A stretch of 64,000 nucleotides of DNA from Staphylococcus sp. IVB6240 (GTDB lineage Bacteria > Bacillota > Bacilli > Staphylococcales > Staphylococcaceae). A model generated the notes under the pieces. It saw only the letters and a program-made list of their open reading frames with translations, did not search any database and was not told the origin of the DNA. Made by a program: the position numbers and the translations under genes. The DNA is taken from positions 1,054,001-1,118,000 of the forward strand of contig NZ_CP094718.1 in assembly GCF_025558425.1 (NCBI RefSeq). The letters run 5' to 3'. Position 1 is the first letter of the stretch. Each line of letters begins with the position of its first letter. Below are positions 10,526 through 38,081 of this stretch, in pieces.

Positions 10526-10610
10526 GTTGAGTAGTTTATAGCTACATACAACCGCTCAAATATAGGTTTAAGAACGTAATGTCACCTATATATGGCGTGA
10601 CTTAAAATTA
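10526..10610 (+). promoter_or_regulatory. Structured ribosomal protein L21 leader
   Basis: Leader RNA before rplU, at the position of the known Bacillota L21 leader. Three pairings are visible: TTGAG (10527) with CTCAA, TATAGGT with ACCTATA (perfect 7 bp), and alternatively GTCA with TGAC around the last one. The GTCA/TGAC helix overlaps the ACCTATA arm, so the two could be mutually exclusive, as expected of autoregulation by L21. The family name is inferred from position and architecture. Confidence 0.65.
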
Positions 10611-10623
10611 GGAGGTGCAAAGT

Positions 10624-30676: not shown

Positions 30677-30911
30677 ATAAGATAGTCGTCTGGGATGTTC
30701 GTAAGTTCGCTTTTTATATTTTGACCTAACACTCTTTGATCAGGGAGTCTAATTGGTTTTCTTGCAGCGCATACGCCTCAATGGAGGACGTGCTAAACAA
30801 GAAACAGGACACCCACCTGTATATAGCAGGCCAAAATGATCAAGCACTCATAAACTACGGCATTCATGGATTCTATCGGTACGCAAGGCATTATGTCTTG
30901 CGTATTTTTTT
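30677..30911 (+). ncRNA. ssrS: 6S RNA
   Basis: About 235 bases between its own promoter and a perfect terminator (TACGCAAG / CTTGCGTA, then seven Ts, 30880-30911). The sequence has landmark segments of Bacillota 6S RNA: TTTTGACCTAACACT, GATCAGGGAGT and CTTGCAGCGCATACGCC, with strong internal pairing. The location directly after aspS and, on the backbone, before tcdA matches bsrA in Bacillus subtilis. 6S RNA binds RNA polymerase holoenzyme in stationary phase. The identification is by recalled sequence and synteny. Confidence 0.85.
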
Positions 30912-36035: not shown

Positions 36036-36396
36036 TAAACTAAAAAGACTAAAAAGGAGTTGTAAACAATGGAAAAAGTGATCAATTACAATGATTTGAT
36101 GAATAAAATTGATAAAAAAGATAAACTATTATTATATGTTATGTCAGAAGGATGCAGCGTTTGTCATGCTGATTTTCCAAGAGTAGATGCATTGGCCAAA
36201 AAACATGAAATGGAAAGTGTACAAATCATGGTAAATGAAATTCCAGAAGCTGCTGGACAATTATCACTGTTTACAGCTCCTGTTCCTACGATTAGTCAAG
36301 CACTTTATTTAAGTGAGTGCTAAAAAAGGCATCACTAAATAAACCTATGTTAGTAAAAAATTTTTGGAATGTGTTATTATGATGGTAGATAGGTTA

Positions 36397-37605
36397 TCAG
36401 TGCGGTGACATTCGATAATCGTATTCTTTATTGTTAATAACTAAGTGATGAATAGTTTTTAACAGCTTGTTCACACAAGCAATAACTGCAGTCTTATGGC
36501 CTTTTCCATAAGGCTGTTCTTTTAATTTATAATAGTAATCAACAATGTGGTTGGCATATAGTCTTTGTACTTTCAACATGTTTTGTACAATGATGTAAAA
36601 TAATGACCTTGCACGTTTATTTCCTCGCTTATTTATTTTGTCTTTGTAATGTGTTTTTCCTGATTGATATCTTTTTATATCAATACCAATATAAGCATTC
36701 AGCTGTTTATGAGAAGTGAAAGCACGTATATCACCTAGTTCTCCAATTACCATAGCTGCAGTTAACTCTCCAATACCTGGAATAGATGTTAATATTTTAA
36801 ATTCATCAAGTGTTTGAGCTAAGTCAATAAGTTGAGTTTGAATGGCTAATTGTCTTTCCATTGAATTAAGTAAATCATCAATTGTGTAGATGAGTTTATC
36901 TACGAAGAATGAATCAGCGGGTACTGATGGATAACTTTCATTCGTATAAGAAACTAACTTCTCCACATATGAATTTACCTTTTTGTCTGACAATCGTTTA
37001 TTAGTACTATTAGCGATTAGCTCTTTCAATTTTGATACATTATTAACATCTACATAATCTGGATGTGGAAATAGCTTCGCAACTCTCAACGCGATTTTAG
37101 AGTATCTGTCTTTAAATAAAATTTGTAGTTCTGGAAAGGTCATATCTAATAACTGAATCAATGTACTTTTTAAGTATGTCATTTGATTAGAAAGTTCTTC
37201 ATAATATCTTGTCACTTCTCTTATTTTGATGTGAATATCTTTTATCATATTTTGAGATGGTTGCTTATTATAATGCTTCGCAAGATTTGCCAACTTATGA
37301 GCATCTGATTTATCTGTTTTCCATGTTCTAAGTGTATTTGTCATTAACTTAGACTCTAACGGATTCACTATACTGTAAGGGATGTAATTTTCATTACAGA
37401 ATCTTTCTAGCGGTTTGGAATATATACCTGTTGATTCAAGAAGGATATAAATCCCTGCATATTGTTTTACATAATTCAATAGATTTTCAAAGCCGCTTTT
37501 ATTATGAATTAATTCAAACTCGTCTATAAAAGTTTCGTTTGAATAATGTGCAATAAAGCTTTTCCCTTTCCCTACATCGATACCAAAATATTCGATATAA
37601 ATCAC
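36397..37605 (-). CDS. IS110-family transposase (DEDD recombinase)
   Basis: 402 residues. N-terminal RuvC-like DEDD domain: Asp10 (FGIDVGKGKS), Glu57 (LLESTGIYS), Asp98 and Asp101 (KTDKSDAHKLA). C-terminal Transposase_20 domain: LTSIPGIGELTAAMVIGELGDI and the serine motif YQSGKTHYKDKINKRGNKRAR. It appears intact. The start is uncertain: the GTG at the end given overlaps the last base of the TAGGAG site; ATT or ATC codons two to five codons in are better spaced and would imply a non-AUG start. Confidence 0.9.
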   Translation of the reverse strand: MIYIEYFGIDVGKGKSFIAHYSNETFIDEFELIHNKSGFENLLNYVKQYAGIYILLESTGIYSKPLERFCNENYIPYSIVNPLESKLMTNTLRTWKTDKSDAHKLANLAKHYNKQPSQNMIKDIHIKIREVTRYYEELSNQMTYLKSTLIQLLDMTFPELQILFKDRYSKIALRVAKLFPHPDYVDVNNVSKLKELIANSTNKRLSDKKVNSYVEKLVSYTNESYPSVPADSFFVDKLIYTIDDLLNSMERQLAIQTQLIDLAQTLDEFKILTSIPGIGELTAAMVIGELGDIRAFTSHKQLNAYIGIDIKRYQSGKTHYKDKINKRGNKRARSLFYIIVQNMLKVQRLYANHIVDYYYKLKEQPYGKGHKTAVIACVNKLLKTIHHLVINNKEYDYRMSPH

Positions 37606-37889
37606 TCCTATTCTTTTTATCTAAGAAGCTTTAACTTCACTGACCCTTATTTTTTTCACTTTCCCATACACGATCTCACTGGACCCAACATACTAAAATC
37701 GAATTAATAAGGAGAGTGAAGTTCTCCAGTTTTTTATACGGATTCGTTGACCCTCGGAGCTGTTCGGAGTACTTCTCTCTACTACTATTCCATAAACTCA
37801 AATAATGCGCTATTGGCAAATTTTAGTAAATAAAAAAGTAGTGAAGTTACCTACCGTCGTAGATTTCTTCACCACTAATCTTAGTATGT
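37606..37889 (-). ncRNA. Candidate IS110 bridge RNA in the left end
   Basis: Noncoding end upstream of the transposase. Read on the minus strand it contains, in order: GAATAGTA (37790-37783), identical to the target flank at 37903-37896; ACAGCTCC (37763-37756), complementary to the other flank (top strand of the element) at 36273-36280; a GGAGA/TCTCC hairpin (37727-37711); and TTAGTATGTT (37696-37687), complementary to the element's own terminus at 37881-37890. This matches left-target, right-target and right-donor guides of a bridge RNA. The RNA ends are not known and the left-donor guide was not found. Confidence 0.68.
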
Positions 37890-38081
37890 TTGTAATACTA
37901 TTCTACAAAAGCAAAGAAATGCATCGACAAGCAAGAATTATTAACTTTGAAGAGTTAGAACAACGCATCGTTGAACTAAAAGCTTTTGAAAATAATTCAT
38001 ATGAATCTGTCTTTTCATAAACCTAGTAAAATAAATAAATTCATGTATGTATCCAAAAATTGAAAAATAAAATATTTTGTA

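Follow-up and report, generated by a model that had tools for sequence, protein, structure and literature searches.

The window analysed here, a 64,000-nucleotide stretch of DNA from Staphylococcus sp. IVB6240, contains one complete IS110-type element of 1.6 kb with a predicted bridge RNA upstream of the transposase (Table 1). The 402-aa product matched two Pfam domains, DEDD_Tnp_IS110 (PF01548, E 3.1e-21) and Transposase_20 (PF02371, E 1.1e-22), which bears out the IS110 assignment of the original prediction, and the sequence strings quoted in that prediction were all recovered in place. By sequence, the recombinase is akin to the IS621 and ISCro4 recombinases, compared as chains of solved structures. 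The non-coding ends measure about 285 bases upstream and about 113 bases downstream of the gene. By reading, the element also contains GATTAGT/ACTAATC, a candidate for the subterminal inverted repeats of 7-17 bp typical of the IS1111 group; several relatives appear to lack it (judged by look). The window copy seems to have split a short gene (36069-36282 and 37892-38020, plus strand) beside a thioredoxin-like gene; the interrupted gene itself, by look, presumably encodes a thioredoxin-like protein, and the two open reading frames that hold its pieces had no Pfam match. Elsewhere in the window, all on the plus strand, Rfam matches were obtained for a T-box leader (2160-2379), an L21 leader (10540-10612) and 6S RNA (30684-30876).

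Table 1. Positions in the window of the element, its predicted RNA and guides, and the adjoining target halves
Feature	Position	Strand	Basis
Whole IS110-type element, core AA to core AA	36283..37891	-	ends common to 8 own-genome copies at different sites
Transposase/recombinase gene, 402 aa	36397..37605	-	domains and resemblance in sequence to structure chains of IS621 and ISCro4
Predicted bridge RNA, two-loop part	37635..37779	-	covariance model match, 140.2 bits, E 3.4e-29 (by construction, as this RNA, L001, is one of the 26 sequences behind the model)
5' stem-loop then six T, just inside left end	37825..37880	-	fold z-score -5.94, 0/200 shuffles as stable
Target-loop helix, 5' arm CTCC, pairing with GGAG at 37727-37724	37766..37769	-	helix 1, 4/4 pairs with two-sided changes
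Target-loop apical hairpin GGGT/ATCC	37740..37753	-	helix 2, 100% of cells paired
Target loop 5' side: putative right target guide GAACAGCTCCGA	37754..37765	-	flank comparison, window's clade and own copies
Target loop 3' side: putative left target guide slot GTATAAAAAAC	37729..37739	-	left-flank match significant in wider clade, not in staphylococcal copies
Right target GGAGCTGT, in flank	36273..36280	-	complement of ACAGCTCC
Left target GTATTAC beside core, in flank	37892..37898	-	5/7 identical to left guide slot; non-significant in staphylococcal subfamily
Donor loop 5' side: putative right donor guide TTAGTATGTT	37687..37696	-	antisense to 37881-37890; matching changes in relatives
Donor loop 3' side: putative left donor guide TATGGGAAA	37660..37668	-	sense to right end GTAGGAA, one mismatch
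TTGACT, candidate -35 box of junction promoter	36294..36299	-	right end; candidate read from the sequence
TAAGAT, candidate -10 box of junction promoter	37878..37883	-	left end; candidate read from the sequence

The genome carries eight full copies and one partial copy of the element, and a protein scan of its contigs returned three loci only. Compared with the window copy over 1,602 bases, three full copies were identical and four differed by one base. The sole difference among the eight in the stretch compared is position 37770, A or G in a 4:4 split; this variable base adjoins the target-loop helix. The eight copies have eight different left flanks, and the right flanks of two of them (L003 and L007) start alike. 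Because the eight copies are near-identical, we infer that this bridge-RNA insertion sequence of the IS110 family was recently active.

To characterise the RNA, we aligned 26 sequences from the clade that contains the window element (hereafter the window's clade). The alignment showed two stem-loops with large internal loops and an apical hairpin on each. Two-sided changes were present in 15 of the 26 pairs, compared with 8.2±1.3 after shuffling, and standard pairing was kept in 98.8% of cells, compared with 32-54% when the alignment was slid. The window RNA alone folded no more stably than its shuffles (z -0.61, 50/200 as stable), and the structural case therefore rests on covariation. The Rfam scan of the window gave no bridge RNA family at the gathering score. 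The covariance model built from the 26 sequences also found L306, L307, L256 and L272, which lie outside the training set, at E<=6.1e-8. The original prediction had located a bridge RNA upstream of the gene, within the non-coding end, and the conserved two-loop fold, into which 37635-37779 (minus strand) fits, upholds it; the RNA is predicted by sequence comparison.

We then compared the target guides with the flanks of the eight own-genome copies, which offer the same RNA segments at different sites. The original prediction had named ACAGCTCC as the right target guide and GAATAGTA as the left one. All eight sites carry a 6- to 8-of-8 complement of ACAGCTCC: the mean best identity to GGAGCTGT in the right flanks was 7.00/8 (range 6-8), against 4.29±0.27 in shuffled flanks (0/1000), and the match starts 1-2 bases past the core in every copy. 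GAATAGTA is likewise carried by all eight copies, and the full 8-base left-flank match occurs in the window copy alone. With all eight copies included, GAATAGTA scored 5.38 against the left flanks, compared with 4.68±0.25 for shuffled flanks (7/1000); without the window copy (n = 7) the score was 5.00 compared with 4.69±0.28, and 192/1000 shuffles were as high. At unrelated targets, then, the same segment keeps its match in the case of ACAGCTCC and loses it in the case of GAATAGTA, and we rejected GAATAGTA as the left guide, its match being a coincidence of the window's one site. It lies just upstream of the aligned RNA stretch. The roughly 8 unpaired bases that had been noted around the core arose because the left guide was wrongly assigned; what stands of that observation is a spacing of 1-2 bases that separates the right-guide match from the core. 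By reading, most staphylococcal right flanks begin short palindromes of the type NNNNCTGGGACAT.

The core of the window copy is AA (37891-37890 and 36284-36283), and the right-side core in the eight own copies is AA in six, AT in one and AC in one. A TT core, as originally proposed, is ruled out by these copies together with the uninterrupted sites of two relatives, which also give AA. In one of these, a second element of one staphylococcus (L213-L215; 5' side GAGCTTCGCGT, 3' side GTTAGGAAAC), the site reads CCCCTAGG-AA-CGCGAAGC; the two halves lie close together at 21 places in that genome, separated by AA in 14, AAA in six and AAGAA in one. The second relative belongs to another family, with the site CAAAG-AA-AAGCCTACG; eight uninterrupted places of that kind were found, and CCCGCAAAG was followed by AA at 8/8 of them. 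Insertion at a short AA core without target duplication was thus seen in two relatives, with the core register uncertain by one base in runs of A.

For a wider comparison, we searched the genus, the order and a sample of the class. DNA similarity to the element was found in 48/84 genus genomes (its own included) and the exact left-end pattern in 29/84; protein matches were found in 40/157 genomes of the order and, at E<=1e-30, in 49/398 genomes of the class sample. The genus set comprised 50 copies readable at both ends (51 were parsed, and L113 was dropped for a false right end), the wider-clade set 37 copies from other genera or a second family, and the sister clade 18 copies with the ends CGTATTATG (left) and TATTAGCTGG (right). 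Loci with a left end only were left out of the genus set, and copies with the same flanks were counted once. Also left out were L265, whose left end diverges early; L216, L217, L263, L272, L273, L277-L280, L296-L298 and L301 (cut contig, damaged RNA or no usable flank pair); and, from the sister group and others, L270, which was omitted from the list of strings, and L290 and L292-L295 (ends or loop ambiguous). For L283 and L299 the scoring covered just the left side, and the guide scores exclude L218-L221, L274, L275, L304, L305 and L308-L311. Small palindromes were seen at L106 and L111 (1501-1570 in each, 70 bases), L102 (1501-1544) and L131 (1481-1523; 43-44 bases in these two). They consist of the element's left end and an inverted copy of it (AAACATACTAAG...CTTAGTATGTTT), with no right end within reach, and look like tiny derived units.

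In a protein tree of 54 rows, the window's clade formed one side of a branch with support 100/100, comprising 24 rows labelled as reversed by their left end together with L306 and L307, which were unlabelled beforehand and also read as reversed. The 16-row core of the sister clade had support 99/96. L292 and L293, labelled canonical by their right end, fell outside both clades: L292 springs from the fork that also gives rise to the sister core and the window's clade, with no resolved order among the three, and L293 lies outside it (95/90). Given these placements of L292, L293 and the sister core, the canonical guide order is likely ancestral. IS4321, so named in a plasmid record and presumably an IS1111-type element, lies far from the window's clade.

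The covariance model of the window's clade was also run against the sister-clade loci. It matched 17/19 of them at E<=10 and 13/19 at E<=0.01; L276 and L293 had no match. Fifteen of the 17 matches span 128-149 bases, with L291 at 96 and L292 at 64. Among nine more distant elements a single one matched (E 0.11). In two of the sister-clade alignments, L300 and L286, both loops align with the loops of the model. Since the model matches the sister-clade RNAs and both loops line up, the loop sides of the two clades are most likely homologous.

To determine which loop side reads which half of the target, we scored the loop sides one by one against both flanks and on both strands, with shuffled flanks and guides swapped between families as controls. 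The scored copies were 87 of the window's clade (50 staphylococcal copies with 14 guide versions and 37 wider-clade copies with 14) and 18 of the sister clade (15 versions). Before scoring, loop boundaries and guide strings had been chosen by eye on the RNA layout, and the clades had been labelled according to the element ends. The results showed that the 5' guide was antisense to the right flank in the staphylococcal set (6.44 vs 3.78 shuffled, 0/200) and in the wider clade (6.50 vs 3.73, 0/200 shuffles), and that the 3' guide of the wider clade was sense to the left flank (5.20 vs 4.24, 0/200 shuffles). In the sister clade, the 5' guide was sense to the left flank (8.19 vs 3.93, 0/200 shuffles) and the 3' guide, in 16 copies, antisense to the right flank (6.03 vs 3.74, 0/200 shuffles). 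Guides swapped between families reached these signals in 0/200 swaps each, a control that works at the level of families that share ancestry, the copies themselves being related. Against the other flank or strand, the 5' guide stayed at chance level in each of the three sets. Two cells of the wider clade that were not predicted, 3' antisense to the left flank (5/200 shuffles, 34/200 swaps) and 3' sense to the right flank (55/200 shuffles, 1/200 swaps), did not hold in both controls. The staphylococcal 3' slot scored 4.51 against the left flank, compared with 4.49, and 79/200 shuffles and 61/200 swaps were as high.

Counted by version, the 5' side fitted the right flank better in 27/27 family-by-guide versions of the window's clade and the left flank better in all 13 of the 15 sister-clade versions that have both flanks. 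By reading, L260 and L306 have a target match on both sides. One genome outside the genus holds two guide versions in similar elements, with four and seven copies, and the flanks fit their own version (5/330 relabelings were as good, the true one included). By copy (n = 11), two scored equally with both guides and L203 scored better with the other guide. Compared with L205 and L206-L212, L203 combines the left end of one version with the guides of the other and is inserted at a site resembling that of L205; copies in this genome seem to exchange guide segments.

The donor loop was read in the same way. The original prediction had identified TTAGTATGTT as the right donor guide, and this was supported: of the five relatives whose terminus has changed, four show the matching change in the guide. 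The paired changes are ACATATT/AATATGT in L213, ACAGACT/AGTCTGT in L262, AACTTACT/AGTAAGTT in Leuconostoc and ACATTCT/AGAATGT in L. plantarum; in L260 the terminus changed and the guide had no matching change. The left donor guide is short. In its last three letters ahead of the core it agrees with the right end (AGG or AAG) at 15 of 16 listed loci; the window element departs from it at one of these three key letters (GGG in the guide for AGG). In the donor loop the left terminus is thus matched in antisense by the 5' side, and the right end in sense by the 3' side. Both loops therefore follow the order right, left, and by this comparison the donor loop is swapped too. The series left target, right target, left donor, right donor given by the original prediction is replaced by right target, left target, right donor, left donor. 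Taken together, the guide comparisons indicate that in the window's clade the 5' loop side very probably reads the right DNA and the 3' side the left, opposite to the sister clade, which amounts to a reversed bridge RNA.

One observation runs against this reversed order: the distance from the core to the right-guide match varies within one-guide families, where strictly core-anchored pairing would predict no variation. In G058, which has one guide, it was 0-3 bases, with a clear match in 4/5 copies. Outside the genus the distance varied in G151, G296, G286 and G372 and was constant in G022b and G204; the two multi-copy families of the sister clade have one distance each. The staphylococcal branch may tolerate slack in its site.

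Alternative explanations were weighed against the reversed order. Under the canonical IS621 order, GAATAGTA would be the left guide, ACAGCTCC the right guide and TTAGTATGTT the right donor guide, with the left donor guide unread. This order is the one published for IS621, and GAATAGTA is identical to the left flank of the window copy at 8/8 bases. It is highly improbable all the same: the seven other near-identical copies lack a match beyond chance, staphylococcal relatives keep ATAGT at the place of GAATAGTA though their targets differ, and the 5' loop side, a match to the left flank in the sister clade, is paired in the window's clade with the right one. A protein that recognises the edge of a repeat, with an RNA that resembles the repeat by descent and has no effect, would account for the finding that 4/8 full copies sit at the interspersed palindrome GGAGCTGGGACATAGTGCTCAGCTCC and its variants; the genome has ten places with the searched repeat core (<=1 mismatch), and four of these have a copy at the edge. 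The other four copies lie outside the repeat family yet still carry GAGCTGT, guides vary from family to family and match their own flanks more closely than swapped ones do (0/200), and the two guide versions within one genome go with different flanks (5/330 relabelings), all of which makes this explanation scarcely credible.

A different possibility is that targeting is one-sided, the right guide alone guiding while the 3' side is structural and the left half is set by the protein or by A/T content. The left slot at chance in the 50 staphylococcal copies would fit this, as would left flanks that are diverse and, by look, A/T-rich. We consider it unlikely for the clade as a whole, since in the 37 wider-clade copies the left slot scored above both shuffles and swaps (0/200 each), and its match at core distances 1-5 (0.92, 0.78, 0.62, 0.62 and 0.51) exceeded that of other families' guides (0.59, 0.40, 0.31, 0.27 and 0.36). 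Under the reversed order as well, the right guide does nearly all the measurable selecting in the staphylococcal copies, where the left half is simply A/T-rich; for that branch one-sided targeting may hold.

The reversed order can be placed in a tentative scheme of transposition. As in the published work on IS621 and ISEc21, a circle would join the right and left ends of the element; the joined ends would put TTGACT 17 bases before TAAGAT and could so create a promoter for both RNA and gene. A promoter scan of the linear element and its flanks gave no excess (9 vs 9.4±3.0). By analogy, the donor loop of the recombinase-RNA complex would pair with the joined ends, its 5' side with the left terminus and its 3' side with the right terminus, the target loop would pair with the site, and strands would be exchanged at the AA core. 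In both layouts the guides run inward to the core, which makes one layout the mirror image of the other as regards the element's ends. Both loops would be flipped at once if the internal cassette of RNA plus gene were inverted. When the end sequences of the two clades were compared, same-side comparison gave 6.13 and 5.06 of 11 and flipped comparison 5.82 and 5.66; the resemblance is similarly weak in both, and the ends therefore do not decide between inversion and guide exchange. We lean slightly towards a third layout, in which the RNA is upstream with the right guide first in both loops; homologous slots would have been re-assigned to the opposite half, most simply through one cassette inversion, and in staphylococci the left guide would then have become lax and targeting nearly one-sided, following the interspersed palindromes of the host.

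In two related clades with one RNA model and the same RNA-gene arrangement, the same loop side would thus read opposite DNA halves. Such a flip implies that the complex should be indifferent to which end bears which guide partner, as long as the guides read inward to the core. Bridge RNAs are under development as tools for programmable recombination. A guide reader built on the IS621 order would misassign the guides in this Bacilli clade, as happened in the original prediction.

In IS621, each loop uses its 5' side to pair with the left bottom strand and its 3' side to pair with the right top strand (PMC11208160, PMC11208158). The window element resembles it in the DEDD recombinase, an RNA from the upstream end, a target loop followed by a donor loop, each with a guide along either side, and a core dinucleotide common to both ends; its 5' stem-loop with six T lies in the same place as the 5' stem-loop of IS621. 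The sister clade has the order published for IS621, 5' left and 3' right. The window's clade differs in that, in both loops, the right top strand would be the partner of the 5' side and the left bottom strand that of the 3' side, and the core is AA in the window element as opposed to CT in IS621. The best plasmid hits were to ISSep2, an IS110-like element of Staphylococcus so named in plasmid annotations, and covered 62% of the element at about 67% identity; among the matches listed, the literature on ISSep2 and the literature joining bridge RNA, IS110 and Staphylococcus did not overlap. No upstream RNA with the top-strand complement first was described among the full-text literature matches listed, most subscription papers, preprints and supplements being beyond reach, and priority for the upstream-RNA, right-guide-first layout is uncertain.

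By the published rule, guide order goes with the group and with where the RNA lies, and is reversed between IS1111 and IS110. ISEc21, of the IS110 type, has its RNA upstream, and in that RNA the bottom-strand complement lies 5' of the top-strand one (PMC11187229); the window's clade shares the upstream RNA and the lack of a target duplication, whereas the order of the complements is reversed. IS1111 elements carry the top-strand complement first, and almost all have the longer non-coding region, the source of the RNA, downstream of the transposase, with few exceptions such as ISMtsp17 (PMC11187229). That downstream RNA region is absent from the window element, which, as in the IS110 group, has its predicted bridge RNA in the longer upstream end (37635-37779). 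The likeness to IS1111 seekRNA elements such as ISEc11 lies in the top-strand complement standing 5' of the bottom-strand complement; this arrangement was found in the window's clade, with only the top-strand guide above chance when the staphylococcal copies are taken alone. The difference is the place of the RNA, downstream of the transposase in IS1111 and upstream here. As far as sequence comparison goes, the window's clade joins the RNA position of IS110 to the guide order reported for IS1111.
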